This document shows positions 18,209-23,890 of a stretch of DNA of 24,099 nucleotides, piece after piece (positions within the stretch are counted from its first letter, which is position 1; the number at the start of each line of letters is the position of its first letter). The notes beneath the pieces are model-generated. The model had not been told where the DNA came from, did not search any database, and saw only the letters and a program-made list of their open reading frames with translations. Source of the DNA: a virus; IMG/VR virus record IMGVR_UViG_3300033145_001328, positions 1 through 24,099 of that record; one strand, given 5' to 3'. The position numbers and the translations under genes were made by a program.

Positions 18209-19567
18209 CTACATATACGAACCAGATACCAACGGCTGTCTCTGCATTGGTCTGGTAATTGGCATAAGTGTGTATATCGCATAACCCGCACCATCACTGG
18301 CATGGGTTAGCTCTTTTCGTCTTTTGTCTATCTGCCCGTTTTTATCAAGTACAACTATCTGAAAGTCTTTGATAAGTTTTTTACATTTAGGATTAATCTT
18401 TACCCTTGTAAACTCTCCCCTGTCTTTTAGTGCTGAATTGACAGAATTTAGTCTGTCTTTCACAGGTGGGTTGCCGGGGGGAATATGTCCGTCATATGGA
18501 ACACCCCGACTAATTAAAACTTCTTTCATGATTAGATGGTCGGATTCACCAACCGTAGACCTATGACCACCACTTGCATCACTGAATATGTTTACATGTG
18601 GCTTTCTACCATCCAACTGCTCCATCTTCTTGTAATACCAATCACAAAAAATATTAATAGCTGCCTCAGTTTTTGCGTTATCAGGAATTACTATTTCGTC
18701 TATGAATTCGATGTAATCACTTTTGTATTGCAATATCTCCCACACCATAGGCGAAACATTAAAATCACAGGTGAGACCGAGATTCAGGTAAGAACTAAAT
18801 TCTACATCTGATATGTTATGTTTGTTAAACTCATGATAGGCACGGCCACTGGTCATATTGATGATTAAGCCATCAATATATGCTTGTGCTAATATGCTGT
18901 CGTAAGATTCCTCTAAATCGGATACATAATCATCGGGAAGATATATGTTTTCTCTACTGCTTGCTGTGAAAAGCCTATATTTCCCTTCTCGCTTGCCACC
19001 CTCACATTTATCCACAAACTCATCGGTAATCCAATGGAGCGTTCCTTCGGGAGTCGTCGATAAAAATCCCTTGAGATATCTTGCTTTCTTGTGCCGTAAG
19101 CGTGCTATCCCAATTTGCCAGGCAAGCAAATCAGACATGGCTGCTTCATCCATCCCAAAAAACGATAAACTAGGACCTCTTAGTGAATTGGGATTATCGG
19201 TAGATCTGAAAAAGATTTCGTTGCTGAGATGTCTTCCATTGTAAAGATTAACTACCGGATGGGGGGTCTTTACATATTTGTAATGTATGGGTGCAGAGGG
19301 GGTGGGAGGTATCTGCCTTTGTTCCAATATTTCAAAAAAGGTTCTTAATAGTGGTTCCTGTAACATGGCAAATGTGGGGGCTGCAAGCATCCCTGGCGCA
19401 CCAGGATTTTCTAATGCACATCTTAAACCCTTTTCACAAAATGCCCATGTCTTGCCACTGCCAAACCCCCCTAAAAAAGCCGAATACTTTTCTGGTGTAA
19501 AATAAAATTTCTTTTGTGTCGGCAAAAGTGGAACATCTATATTTACTACTCTTTTCTTTGCAAGCAT
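18209..19567 (-). CDS. terL: Terminase large subunit
   Basis: 452 residues. Walker A GGFGSGKT at 33-40, Walker B LSFFGMDE at 134-141 (catalytic E141), and coupling motif STTPEG at 170-175. In the C-terminal nuclease the aspartates are visible: LTCDFN (D268), FSDASGG (D330) and HASDGAG (D425). Packages DNA into the prohead with ATP and cuts it. Followed by portal after 3 bases; start ATG 19567. Confidence 0.93.
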   Translation of the reverse strand: MLAKKRVVNIDVPLLPTQKKFYFTPEKYSAFLGGFGSGKTWAFCEKGLRCALENPGAPGMLAAPTFAMLQEPLLRTFFEILEQRQIPPTPSAPIHYKYVKTPHPVVNLYNGRHLSNEIFFRSTDNPNSLRGPSLSFFGMDEAAMSDLLAWQIGIARLRHKKARYLKGFLSTTPEGTLHWITDEFVDKCEGGKREGKYRLFTASSRENIYLPDDYVSDLEESYDSILAQAYIDGLIINMTSGRAYHEFNKHNISDVEFSSYLNLGLTCDFNVSPMVWEILQYKSDYIEFIDEIVIPDNAKTEAAINIFCDWYYKKMEQLDGRKPHVNIFSDASGGHRSTVGESDHLIMKEVLISRGVPYDGHIPPGNPPVKDRLNSVNSALKDRGEFTRVKINPKCKKLIKDFQIVVLDKNGQIDKRRKELTHASDGAGYAIYTLMPITRPMQRQPLVSGSYM

Positions 19568-19591
19568 TTTGGTTAAACATCTGCCCTTCCC

Positions 19592-19774
19592 CTATGTCCA
19601 AGGATTTTTAATTTTACAGCGAACCCAAACATATAGTGCAATAAGCAGATTTAAGGGGATCGGATAACAAACACTGCTAACTATGAATTCATTTCTAGTG
19701 TCGGGGAATTTGCGGGCACGATTTTCATCCGTTAGGGGTGAGGGGAAATCCTCGTAACAATGTAAAATCTTCAT
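19592..19774 (-). CDS. Small membrane-segment protein (60 aa)
   Basis: AGAGGT six bases before ATG 19774. Starts MKILHCYEDFPSPLTDENRA and has a hydrophobic stretch (VCYPIPLNLLIALYVWV) near the end. It occupies the gap between the lytic transglycosylase and TerL. No recognised family; the second half may be a membrane anchor. Confidence 0.55.
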   Translation of the reverse strand: MKILHCYEDFPSPLTDENRARKFPDTRNEFIVSSVCYPIPLNLLIALYVWVRCKIKNPWT

Positions 19775-19789
19775 TTCACGACCTCTCGA

Positions 19790-20335
19790 TTATATTGTTT
19801 TATATTTCCGGTAAAACCTTTCAATTTTAGATACGTAAGTTAGTGTTTCTTTCGAGTAGTCTCCGGTAAAATTAACTAAATACTTTTTAGAATATCTCCA
19901 TGTCTGCCATTTACCCGGGGGTGATCCCGCCCGCTTCCAATCCATAAAACCAAATGGAAGCCCCTCTGACTTCCTGGCAAGTCTTAATGTTTTATTAACA
20001 TTGCCCCGCCCTGCATTGTATGCAGCCAAAGTAAATCTTAGCCGCTCCTGTTCGTCTGGTATTTCCGAAAGTCGGCCATATAAAAACCATAGGTATCTTA
20101 CTCCAGCGTCTATATTCCATTCCGGCTCCCTCAATTCATCGATGCTTACCATTCCCATGTCTTTAGCCGTTCCTTGCATTAATTGCATTAAGCCACACGC
20201 ACCAGCAGGACTTTCGGCATAACGATAAAAATTGCTTTCCCGCCTTATCACGGCCTTGATTAATATCCAGTCAAATTCCGTGTACTTTTCAGTATAGTAT
20301 TGAATCAGACTGTCATACCGATCTTGTTTGAGCAT
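19790..20335 (-). CDS. Lytic transglycosylase (SLT fold)
   Basis: The frame reaches 20377, but those residues are the terminator hairpin; ATG 20335 with GAGGT upstream is chosen (MLKQDRYDSL). Catalytic Glu33 in IRRESNFY, then the SLT signatures GLMQLM (49-54) and AAYNAGRGNV (104-113). Cleaves the glycan backbone of peptidoglycan. No signal peptide, so export depends on a holin or it acts as a virion enzyme at entry. Unusual in lying between TerS-side genes and TerL. Confidence 0.85.
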   Translation of the reverse strand: MLKQDRYDSLIQYYTEKYTEFDWILIKAVIRRESNFYRYAESPAGACGLMQLMQGTAKDMGMVSIDELREPEWNIDAGVRYLWFLYGRLSEIPDEQERLRFTLAAYNAGRGNVNKTLRLARKSEGLPFGFMDWKRAGSPPGKWQTWRYSKKYLVNFTGDYSKETLTYVSKIERFYRKYKTI

Positions 20336-20348
20336 GTTCACTACCTCA

Positions 20349-20657
20349 TTAAAAAAACCCGTAGGCTTTATAAGCACGGGGTTTAGGTAAAACGATAATA
20401 TGCAGATGAACCTTAAATCTCTTCCACAAGTCTATCATATGATTTGCAAGTTCTATTGCATCTTCTTGATTAAATTCTGGGAAAACCTCAAAAGCTTCCC
20501 CCTCTTTCTGGTCGGGAAAAAGCCCACCATCAGCCCCCTCGCTCGGCGACCATTCTCCATCCTCAGAAGGCTCTCCCAAACCAATCAACCCCCAATGTGC
20601 ATATGCCCTTGTGCCACTTGAAAATATTATTTCGTCCTTCTCTTCATCTATTTTCAT
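20349..20657 (-). CDS. Acidic hypothetical protein (102 aa)
   Basis: ATG 20657 overlaps TGA 20654-20656 of a frame continuing from the Zn protein upstream. It is very acidic in the middle (GEPSEDGEWSPSEGADG) with a helix at DAIELANHMIDLWKRF and a beta end (HLHIIVLPKP). No recognised family. Confidence 0.62.
   Translation of the reverse strand: MKIDEEKDEIIFSSGTRAYAHWGLIGLGEPSEDGEWSPSEGADGGLFPDQKEGEAFEVFPEFNQEDAIELANHMIDLWKRFKVHLHIIVLPKPRAYKAYGFF
20351..20383 (-). terminator. Terminator/attenuator before lytic transglycosylase
   Basis: AACCCGT (20356-20362) pairs with ACGGGGTT (20376-20383, one bulged base) plus inner stem GCTT/AAGC; on the minus strand followed by T7 (20357-20351). It overlaps the last codons of the preceding gene and ends about 15 bases before the transglycosylase ATG. 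Confidence 0.72.
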
Positions 20658-20707
20658 TTACTGTAGTTCTCCACGATTTCTTTTCGGGCTAATTCCTCTA
20701 AAATCTC
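20654..20707 (-). other. In-frame coding remnant after the stop of the CxxC gene
   Basis: After TAA 20710-20708 the same frame continues for 17 sense codons (EILEELARKEIVENYSK) to TGA 20654, which forms an ATGA overlap with the next gene, the same linkage as other genes of this operon. This supports an ancestral longer protein cut by a new ochre stop. Confidence 0.5.
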
Positions 20708-21028
20708 TTATTCTCCCTTTGGGGCTGTATAGTCTCCACTTCTCCTTTTCTCCTCTTCATGTTTTTCCAAATGAAACACAAAGTACCTTCTCAATTCTTC
20801 GGGCAGATTTTCATCTTCTTCCACTAATCTTCTTTGACACTTTGGACAAATGTGAAAGGGTTCTTCTTTATCGGGGTCTAAAAGATATATATGGCGTGTT
20901 TGAAGCCAGCCGTGGTGTGACTCGCTCAATAAATCTAGCGTACTTATAGTGTCGTTAGATCGTTCTGGTGGCGGTTCTTTTAGTGGCCAACCAATACAGG
21001 CATCACATGCTATTCTCTTTTCTCTCAT
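20708..21028 (-). CDS. CxxC zinc-binding-type protein (106 aa)
   Basis: ATG 21028 overlaps the stop of the nucleotide hydrolase gene (ATGA). ACDACIGWP near residue 9 and CPKCQRR near 61 form a likely zinc site, with HLEKHEEEK in the C-terminal helix. No recognised family. The TAA at 20708 may be a secondary truncation. Confidence 0.66.
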   Translation of the reverse strand: MREKRIACDACIGWPLKEPPPERSNDTISTLDLLSESHHGWLQTRHIYLLDPDKEEPFHICPKCQRRLVEEDENLPEELRRYFVFHLEKHEEEKRRSGDYTAPKGE

Positions 21029-21543
21029 TTCCTGTAGTTCTCCAAAAACTCTTTTAAACTTATCTCTTTATCGTTTGAAAGAAATATCTTACAGGGATTT
21101 TTTTGATAACCTGTAACATAAACCACCTCACGGCCAAACACAAAAACTGTCTTCTCTTTGTATAAGCGCTCTATGATTCCAAAATCAAAAACATCATTTG
21201 CAATCGGTCGTGGCTTTACATCTATCAACTTCACCCGATCATCAAACTCTGGATGGGTTTTTGTGTAATCTAAAAGCGTAAAGCATCCCCACGCAGCTTG
21301 AGCTACATGATGTAATCCTGTTTCCTCATCATAATCTTCACCACGCCAAAATTTCCACAAATGACGCATGATTGCACCAAAGACACGCCCCCAAGCCATT
21401 CCCTTTTCCATGTTCCTGGGTTCATATTTTTTAGCACCTATAGTATATACCTTGGCAAGCTCTAGGAGTGGTTGAGGCGGAATTAGATCAAACCTTTCCT
21501 TGTTCTCATCGTACTTGATACCGTCTTTCAGTTGATCGCTCAC
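21025..21543 (-). CDS. dATP/dGTP diphosphohydrolase-type protein (DUF5664-like)
   Basis: 172 residues with GTG start 21543 (GTGA overlap). DGIKYDENKERFDLIPPQPL, TIGAKKYEPRNMEKGMAWGR (about 34-53), IMRHLWKFWRGEDYDEETGL and HHVAQAAWGC give the signature of the all-helical NTP hydrolase-like family with acidic metal sites (EExxHH type). Members remove pyrophosphate from dNTPs. Role here is nucleotide-pool control in the infected cell, by family knowledge. The C-terminal third is not recognised. Confidence 0.76.
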   Translation of the reverse strand: MSDQLKDGIKYDENKERFDLIPPQPLLELAKVYTIGAKKYEPRNMEKGMAWGRVFGAIMRHLWKFWRGEDYDEETGLHHVAQAAWGCFTLLDYTKTHPEFDDRVKLIDVKPRPIANDVFDFGIIERLYKEKTVFVFGREVVYVTGYQKNPCKIFLSNDKEISLKEFLENYRK

Positions 21544-21875
21544 TTCAAATCCTCAATATTATAATAAACGGGAATGTCCAATTCTTGTGCTCTTTTGATT
21601 TCTTCAATCGTTCCCCTGCTATTCGTCCATCCAGGAACAACTAAAACGGCATCGGCAGCTTCAAGCCATGCCATAGAATAATTGTAATAATCCTGGACAG
21701 TGATTTTTTCACCATCTCTAAGCATTAGGGTAAAGTGATAATCGAGCCAGGGACAGAAGGGAGAATGCCCTTTGAGCAAAACCTCTGTACTCAAACGCAT
21801 ACCACTACGCATATTGTTTAAAACATCTAATACGTTATCTGCGGAATAAGCACCGGCTACGTAAACTCTTTTCAC
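21540..21875 (-). CDS. DUF4406 / nucleoside 2-deoxyribosyltransferase-like protein
   Basis: 111 residues with a GTG start 21875 overlapping the previous stop (GTGA). RVYVAGAYSADNVLDVLNNM is the typical Rossmann start; FCPWLDYHFT and WLEAADAVLVVPGW follow; the end NSRGTIEEIKRAQELDIPV matches the 2-deoxyribosyltransferase/DUF4406 clan, with GTxxEI as the usual substrate-binding loop. Coupled to the dATP/dGTP hydrolase gene below, it suggests nucleoside salvage or a pool-modifying pair. Confidence 0.8.
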   Translation of the reverse strand: MKRVYVAGAYSADNVLDVLNNMRSGMRLSTEVLLKGHSPFCPWLDYHFTLMLRDGEKITVQDYYNYSMAWLEAADAVLVVPGWTNSRGTIEEIKRAQELDIPVYYNIEDLK

Positions 21876-22033
21876 TTAACCCCCAATTCCTCAACCACTT
21901 TCACCCCTGCTTTCTTGATTAAATCATCTTTCTTCACTATGACGCAGCCATTAAGTTCAAGCCATAGTTCTAAACTGTGTGCTGTTGGGTATCCTAAGAT
22001 AGCAATTAACTTTTCAATCAGCTCTTTATCCAT
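21872..22033 (-). CDS. Small helical protein (53 aa)
   Basis: Read directly: ATG 22033 to TGA 21872. It begins MDKELIEKLIAILGYPTAHS and ends VKVVEELGVK. The stop overlaps the next GTG (GTGA) and the start lies 16 bases inside the end of the upstream gene. No recognised family. The tight linkage on both sides supports it. Confidence 0.62.
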   Translation of the reverse strand: MDKELIEKLIAILGYPTAHSLELWLELNGCVIVKKDDLIKKAGVKVVEELGVK

Positions 22034-22461
22034 TTCTCACCGTCCCATGTCTTGTTTCTCATGAAGAAAGCACATAAAACTGTTTCTCTTGTCAGATGAT
22101 TGTTTTTTAATAGTAAATTAAGTATTGATGGGTGATCTTCTCTCATAAATTTTCCAACTTCCTCATGACAATCTTGACACCAGTAACCTCTTTCGTGGAT
22201 ACATTTCATTGCATCTGCTACCATATCCCAATACTGGTCTTGGTGGGGAACATAAACGCAACGCCCAAATCCTCCACTTCCATGAATATCGTGAAATTCC
22301 TCAGACCAGGGACTGTCGGGATTTCTTGCACATATAAAATCTTCTATTTCACTGTTCCACCCATAAAACCTTTCGTGGTCCGGACAATACCTATCCCCGA
22401 TTTTGTGTTCCTGAATTTCGGGGCAATCAACCATGGCTATGTGAATTTTACTTCTATCCAT
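22018..22461 (-). CDS. Hypothetical Cys/His-rich protein (147 aa)
   Basis: ATG 22461 is chosen over GTG 22464 by SD spacing (AAGGA). Contains DCPEIQEHKIGDRYCPDHERF (split), CIHERGYWCQDCHEE and CARNP, so several possible metal sites (CxxC at about 95-98). The end is helical (LLKNNHLTRETVLCAFFMRN). No recognised family; first gene after TerS. Confidence 0.64.
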   Translation of the reverse strand: MDRSKIHIAMVDCPEIQEHKIGDRYCPDHERFYGWNSEIEDFICARNPDSPWSEEFHDIHGSGGFGRCVYVPHQDQYWDMVADAMKCIHERGYWCQDCHEEVGKFMREDHPSILNLLLKNNHLTRETVLCAFFMRNKTWDGEKWIKS

Positions 22462-22464
22462 CAC

Positions 22465-22917
22465 CTATTCCTTCAAGGGTGAACCCTTGGTGGCATCTAT
22501 TACATTAAACACTATTGGATTGCCCTCGGCATCACCACCTATCTGTAGGCTCATAACATGCTTCCATTTTTCGGGGTCTCTATTACACAGCCAGTTCATG
22601 TCTGCCTGGTCTGAAGGGGGAACATATTTTCTGGTTATTGTTTGTCTTGTAGTTCCATCCCTGTATTTTGTTACCTTAACCTCTTCATACCAAAAGCCGA
22701 GTGCTTTTTTAAACATGGCAGCCTCTACCTGCCCGTTCGGAGTTTTCTTTGCTTTCTTTATAGTGGCGGTTAAATTGTTATACTTCAACCTATCGGTAAA
22801 AGTTTTTCTCGGTGTTTTCAGTATCTTAGCTATTTCTTCATCGATTTTCCCTTCACCGTATAGCGCAACTATTAATTTCTTTTCATCATCTGTAAATTTC
22901 TTCTTCGGTCTAGCCAT
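22465..22917 (-). CDS. Terminase small subunit-like protein
   Basis: 150 residues. Basic N-terminal HTH (ARPKKKFTDDEKKLIVALYG ... DEEIAKILKTPRKTFTDRL), then a second helix with the family pattern VEAAMFKKALGFWYEE, ending in the VPPSDQADMNWLCNRDPEKW box. These are features of phage small terminase subunits that bind the packaging site and recruit TerL. TerL lies 2.9 kb downstream, separated by accessory genes. Start ATG 22917 with a weak GGGAC upstream. Confidence 0.76.
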   Translation of the reverse strand: MARPKKKFTDDEKKLIVALYGEGKIDEEIAKILKTPRKTFTDRLKYNNLTATIKKAKKTPNGQVEAAMFKKALGFWYEEVKVTKYRDGTTRQTITRKYVPPSDQADMNWLCNRDPEKWKHVMSLQIGGDAEGNPIVFNVIDATKGSPLKE

Positions 22918-23042: not shown

Positions 23043-23348
23043 CTAGCTTCTGATCCAACTACGGTTAGAAGTGTGGTTATTTAATCTCTTAATTAGTAAA
23101 TCTGCGACTTTACTTATTTGCTCCCTTGATGGATTTAAAGTATTAACGACAACACCAAAACGCTTATTTGATTTTGTGTCTCTTATCCCTATGGCAGTCA
23201 TATTTCGATAATCAAAAGGCGTAATAAAAAACTCTATATTTTGGGTCTTCCGAGATTCGCTTCCCCATATGCTTGCAAGCGGAGAAGCTAAATAAGCTCC
23301 GGCAACAAGTATTCCCGTTCTTTTTATAAATTCTCGTCGAGTAATCAT
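23043..23348 (-). CDS. Tat-signal small exported protein (101 aa)
   Basis: The N-terminus TRREFIKRTGILVAGAYLAS is a clear twin-arginine signal (S/T-R-R-x-F-I-K) with a hydrophobic core and Ala-rich cut region. The mature part is ~70 residues (FFITPFDYRNMTAIGIRDT, FGVVVNTLNPSREQISKVAD) with no family I recognise. Tat substrates fold before export, often with a cofactor, though none is evident. Follows a second Tat-signal gene by 4 bases. Confidence 0.72.
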   Translation of the reverse strand: MITRREFIKRTGILVAGAYLASPLASIWGSESRKTQNIEFFITPFDYRNMTAIGIRDTKSNKRFGVVVNTLNPSREQISKVADLLIKRLNNHTSNRSWIRS

Positions 23349-23352
23349 CCTT

Positions 23353-23589
23353 TTAGTTCGGCTTTATTTGCTCCGAATTGAGTGGCACAAAATTGCCACC
23401 TCTCGACTTGGTGATGCTTTTATTGGTATAATACTGATACACACCATCATGATCTATTCGCAGCAGGTATAATCCTGGGTCAACCACACCACCCATTGGT
23501 TTTTTCTTTGAGAGATATGGGGGAAACAACAAAAATGCCGGTACCCCAAGTGCTAAAGTTTTTAAGAATTCCCTTCTTGCTTTAAGCAT
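23353..23589 (-). CDS. Tat-signal small exported protein (78 aa)
   Basis: MLKARREFLKTLALGVPAFL carries RREFLK followed by a hydrophobic core, a twin-arginine signal. About 45 residues remain after it (GLYLLRIDHDGVYQYYTNKS). Its ATG lies 8 bases inside the end of the thioredoxin-like gene (GGGAG upstream). No recognised domain. Confidence 0.7.
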   Translation of the reverse strand: MLKARREFLKTLALGVPAFLLFPPYLSKKKPMGGVVDPGLYLLRIDHDGVYQYYTNKSITKSRGGNFVPLNSEQIKPN

Positions 23590-23890
23590 TGTTCTCCCTC
23601 AAAACCTCATCAATTTTACCAAGATCAGGAACTCCTACCCACCGGCCAAGCATTGTCTCAGTATGCTGCCCATTTTTGTATTCCATGATTAATACCAGTG
23701 TCGGAAATGACCAAACCCCACAATAGGTCGCTTCTGTAAGACCATCAACCTCACCAGAATCATACTTTTCAATAACATATTTGCGGGATTCCAGGGATTT
23801 GAGAGTATCTTGGGTTTTCTGAGCGGCACATTTGGCGCAGTTCCGGCCAAAGAAATACTTAAAATATAGTTTTTTTGACACGTTGGGCAT
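23582..23890 (-). CDS. Thioredoxin-like protein with CxxC
   Basis: 102 residues. Strand KKLYFKYFFG, then CAKC at residues 18-21, a helix (AQKTQDTLKSLESR), and cis-Pro segment WSFPTLVLI (Pro63), all as in thioredoxin/glutaredoxin folds. Two half-cystines in CAKC can form a dithiol. No signal peptide, so cytoplasmic unless fused upstream. The ATG 23890 has AAGGA 12 bases upstream and overlaps the Cys-rich gene before it. Confidence 0.77.
   Translation of the reverse strand: MPNVSKKLYFKYFFGRNCAKCAAQKTQDTLKSLESRKYVIEKYDSGEVDGLTEATYCGVWSFPTLVLIMEYKNGQHTETMLGRWVGVPDLGKIDEVLRENNA

Follow-up and report, generated by a model that had tools for sequence, protein, structure and literature searches.

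The window, a linear IMG/VR virus record of 24,099 bases analysed here as a whole, carries on its minus strand two small genes, Tat78 and Tat101. Judging from sequence, we consider it somewhat better than an even chance that these are accessory, Tat-targeted genes of a tailed phage. They are probably real, independently acquired moron-like genes that occupy a variable slot beside thioredoxin-like and packaging genes. The Tat78 protein (78 aa, MLKARREFLKTLALG..., positions 23353-23589, minus strand) begins with the signal A-R-R-E-F-L-K and a hydrophobic stretch followed by KKK. Tat101 (101 aa, MITRREFIKRTGILVAG..., 23043-23348, minus strand) begins with T-R-R-E-F-I-K.

Transcription of the minus strand proceeds from a Cys-rich Zn-finger-like ORF (from 24060 leftward) through a thioredoxin-like gene (102 aa, 23582-23890), Tat78, Tat101 and the terminase small subunit gene terS (22465-22917), and then to the genes for an SLT transglycosylase, TerL and the portal. 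The first-pass annotation had described the thioredoxin-like gene and the two Tat genes as one overlapping row. All three ORFs are present on the minus strand with the expected sizes and coordinates, and the description holds for the thioredoxin-like gene and Tat78, whose reading frames share 8 nt, but not for Tat101, which starts 4 nt past the Tat78 stop codon without overlapping it. The proposed accessory position ahead of the downstream neighbour TerS is borne out. TerS is assigned to phrog_309 with an E-value of 1.5e-19; the gap between Tat101 and terS is 125 nt. No terminator, promoter or RNA structure above the shuffle level was found in the region of the Tat genes.

The S/T-R-R-x-F-L-K motif is present in a short n-region of both proteins and of a Tat78 homologue from a related phage, G002 (TRREFIK in Tat101, ARREFLK in Tat78, SRRKFLK in the homologue); the first position of the Tat78 motif is A, not S or T. 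The generic Tat signal domain TIGR01409 (TAT_signal_seq, a curated NCBIfam model with a cut-off of 16.7 bits) shares with these proteins an RRxF[LI]K motif ahead of a short hydrophobic stretch. Against this model, Tat101 scores above the cut-off both as a whole protein (18.9 bits) and over its first 34 residues (22.0 bits), and the G002 homologue passes over its first 33 residues (17.7 bits; 15.1 bits for the whole protein), whereas the Tat78 signal, at 14.2 bits, falls below it. The earlier claim of Tat-type signals in both proteins is thus upheld by the motif, and by the profile for Tat101 and the homologue's signal. The window proteins also differ from the generic domain in that a clear AxA cleavage site is absent from both: inspection of the region after the h-region revealed no good signal-peptidase site in Tat78 and only weak ones in Tat101, and both proteins may therefore stay anchored.

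Occurrence of the two signals was compared with chance by a strict scan for RRxF[LIVMF]K near a start codon, followed by a hydrophobic stretch, in ORFs of at least 60 aa. The window contains two such ORFs, while each of 400 first-order Markov shuffles contains none, therefore the occurrence is not due to chance. With relaxed criteria, scanning about 208 kb made up of the window and of related and other phage loci returned only Tat78, Tat101, the G002 homologue and one further ORF of 58 aa on the minus strand of locus L003, whose appearance is unlike a Tat signal.

The main competing reading of these N-termini, to which we assign a distinctly smaller but still appreciable probability, is that they merely resemble Tat signals and function as membrane anchors or as ordinary Sec signals. 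The sub-threshold TIGR01409 score of Tat78 speaks for it, as does the Pfam Tat model PF10518, which matches neither window protein and matches the G002 homologue below threshold; the hydrophobic stretches could also act as anchors. Against it stand the scores of Tat101 and of the homologue's signal above a curated Tat cut-off, the retention of RR-x-F-L-K in the Tat78 homologue, and the KKK past the hydrophobic stretch of Tat78, a trait of Tat signals that avoid Sec. Compared with these proteins, Tat cargo is typically larger, and it often binds cofactors; some Tat substrates stay membrane-anchored. A similar size class and signal are found in TIGR02811 (formate dehydrogenase region TAT target; small bacterial Tat proteins, model length 66). 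However, the N-terminal part of the G002 homologue matches this model over the signal only, with 15.8 bits, far under the cut-off of 48.45 bits, and no formate dehydrogenase genes were recognised near the Tat genes.

Tat targeting of accessory genes is the reading further supported by the comparison of Tat78 with its only detectable homologue, found in G002 (L018:573-806). The two proteins are 40% identical over 67 columns, with an E-value of 6e-11 in the pairwise comparison and 4e-7 in the record search. Tat101 matches Tat78 or the homologue with 18.9 bits only, and since this generic Tat similarity is much weaker, the relation between Tat78 and the homologue is specific. Over the first 30 codons of the two genes, pS (0.76) exceeds pN (0.28), a sign of purifying selection on the putative signal part of Tat78; beyond the signal part the proteins diverge fast. 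Conservation with synonymous-biased change is therefore seen for Tat78 and its homologue, but not for the pair of genes, as Tat101 is absent from both relatives of the window. The codon usage of Tat78 (0.17 bits per codon, compared with 0.22 for TerL) supports a phage-like, coding ORF, and an SD-like sequence, GAGGGAG, lies directly 5' of its ATG. Spurious ORFs, also considered, were ruled out by the empty shuffles together with selection on the Tat78 homologue.

The codon fit of Tat101 is weak (0.06 bits per codon) and its GC content is lower (0.37), therefore the case for its being a coding ORF depends on its open frame, its position and the signal. The same combination of weak fit and lower GC might be the pattern of a recent import. 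An AlphaFold model of Tat101 built from the single sequence has a weak beta-beta-beta-alpha core in the mature part (residues 51-90, pLDDT 72-76), for which a fold search found no structural match with E < 0.001; the Tat78 model is too poor for a fold search (pTM 0.19).

The absence of a known family for the mature parts, noticed in the first-pass annotation, was confirmed in Pfam, PHROGs and NCBIfam. Searches of these collections and of PADLOC with Tat78 and Tat101 returned only Tat-signal models and chance matches, and neither protein nor the G002 homologue matches any PHROG. The tblastn searches with whole Tat78 and Tat101 in 50,697 GenBank phages and 72,556 plasmids, and with the signal parts and the mature part of Tat101 separately in the same phages, gave nothing meaningful. 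Relatives of Tat101 were detected neither in GenBank phages and plasmids nor in IMG/VR, including the two related phages. Scans of IMG/VR with Tat101, Tat78, the thioredoxin-like protein, TerL and the portal yielded two informative relatives in total, G001 and G002; scans of this kind detect chiefly close relatives. When genome collections were scanned with alignments of TerL and the capsid, no relatives were found, therefore no host was assigned. A literature search of partial coverage found no described phage Tat substrates of the Tat78 or Tat101 kind.

The two relatives were retrieved through the TerL and thioredoxin searches of IMG/VR. In G001 (76,763 bp), identity to the window is 80% for TerL, 66% for the thioredoxin-like protein, 75% for TerS and 56% for the capsid; in G002 (40,741 bp), it is 75% for the thioredoxin-like protein, 71% for the portal and 85% for the capsid. 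The structural genes of the three phages share 56-85% identity, and the phages differ in the presence and position of the Tat genes. In G001, an HTH gene comes after the thioredoxin-like gene, and a motif scan found no Tat-like ORF in the entire record. In G002, the Tat78 homologue lies upstream of the Zn-finger and thioredoxin-like genes, that is, on the opposite side of the latter compared to the window. As the Tat genes vary in this way while the thioredoxin-like and structural genes are kept, we interpret them as mobile accessory cargo of a variable slot rather than as a conserved module. The interval after the thioredoxin-like gene of G002 contains, in place of the Tat genes, an unrelated lipoprotein-like ORF (L018:1881-2198) with the lipobox FIVGC and a weak match to the Rz-like spanin family phrog_456 (E 0.09); such an ORF would fit a slot that takes exported cargo. 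The genes between terS and terL are rearranged as well (18209-22917 in the window, L002:6749-11314 in G001). Several genes including SLT separate them in the window, whereas in G001 they adjoin and SLT lies upstream.

If the Tat-type N-termini work as signals, a host TatABC system would take both proteins to the inner membrane or the periplasm. At least Tat78 would probably stay anchored in the membrane, because its sequence has no good signal-peptidase site. At the membrane or in the periplasm, the proteins may target the envelope of the infected host, the likeliest class of role. Any function proposed is guesswork, since the mature parts match no family or fold. The likeliest single role, a tentative suggestion with the odds clearly against it, is superinfection exclusion by blocking competing phages, or envelope remodelling. 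The signals generally described for envelope-acting accessory proteins of phages are of the Sec or lipoprotein type, and to our knowledge superinfection-exclusion lipoproteins and the T4 antiholin RI carry other signals, of the Sec type. In other respects these small envelope proteins are comparable to Tat78 and Tat101, being likewise short, N-terminally targeted, phage-encoded and accessory (for RI, PMC8385771). If Tat78 and Tat101 are routed through Tat, folded phage proteins would cross the membrane before lysis. The importance of this is moderate for now.

Two other roles appear improbable. The proteins could be lysis or assembly accessories, for example a small inner-membrane regulator of holin or endolysin, in line with the SLT-type transglycosylase gene in the same cluster and with the possible Tat involvement discussed for the Mu gp25 releasin, which has a reversed twin-arginine motif (PMC9239132). 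However, the SLT protein is common to all three phages and the Tat genes are not, and no matches to holin or antiholin families were found in Pfam and PHROGs. Slightly less probable still, the two proteins could be decoys, in which the signal is the working part and occupies TatBC, slowing or redirecting host Tat export, while the tail hardly matters. Such an arrangement agrees with the location of Tat78 conservation in the signal, with two signals in tandem, and with tails that are short and mutually dissimilar. Yet cargo that faces the host would be just as likely to keep its signal while its tail changes fast, and Tat101 has its weakly predicted folded core. At the same low probability, we speculate that phages of this group may carry small, fast-evolving proteins in which the Tat signal itself does the work, giving the phage entry to the host machinery that exports folded proteins or tying it up; if true, it would be a phage strategy directed at TatABC.

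The thioredoxin-like protein is kept in both relatives. Its assignment to the thioredoxin fold is partly supported by profile similarity: it matches phrog_22 (thioredoxin, E 0.0049) and PDB thioredoxins (E 0.002), but scores 13.4 against the NCBIfam thioredoxin model, below the cut-off of 96.8. The CAKC motif near the N-terminus and a downstream cis-Pro-like SFPT are found in the window protein, and C18xxC21 and P63-T64, the latter at the cis-Pro position, are invariant in all three phages. The protein has no signal peptide and is therefore presumably cytoplasmic. The first-pass annotation suggested a phage-made redox or periplasmic module. A module in which this protein would set the thiol state, reduced or oxidised, of the two exported proteins in the envelope fits the adjoining genes and the fold assignment but is very unlikely, because Tat78 and Tat101 contain no cysteine at all, which largely refutes it, the thioredoxin-like protein lacks an export signal, and the genes are uncoupled: the thioredoxin-like gene stands without any Tat-like ORF in G001, and it lies downstream of the Tat78 homologue in G002. 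Neither an exported oxidoreductase nor a Cys-bearing exported substrate was found among the three proteins, and the neighbour that the thioredoxin-like gene has in all three phages is instead the Cys-rich Zn-finger-like ORF.

In all three phages, the upstream Zn-finger-like ORF extends without a stop for about 64 codons into the thioredoxin-like gene, in the +1 frame, with a near-identical stop position (23689-23890 on the minus strand of the window, L018:1020-1221 and L002:6818-7010). The other frame across this overlap is interrupted by many stops. Divergence at third codon positions is only a little lower there, therefore dual coding is possible.

Both relatives contain a long run of genes resembling those for sugar or surface glycan metabolism (L016:5244-19174 in G001, L021:915-9018 in G002). 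By eye, it includes methyltransferase, radical-SAM-like, epimerase/dehydratase-like, GHMP-kinase-like and SIS-domain-like ORFs. The window has a gene of the heptosyltransferase family (PF01075) at 1733-2899.
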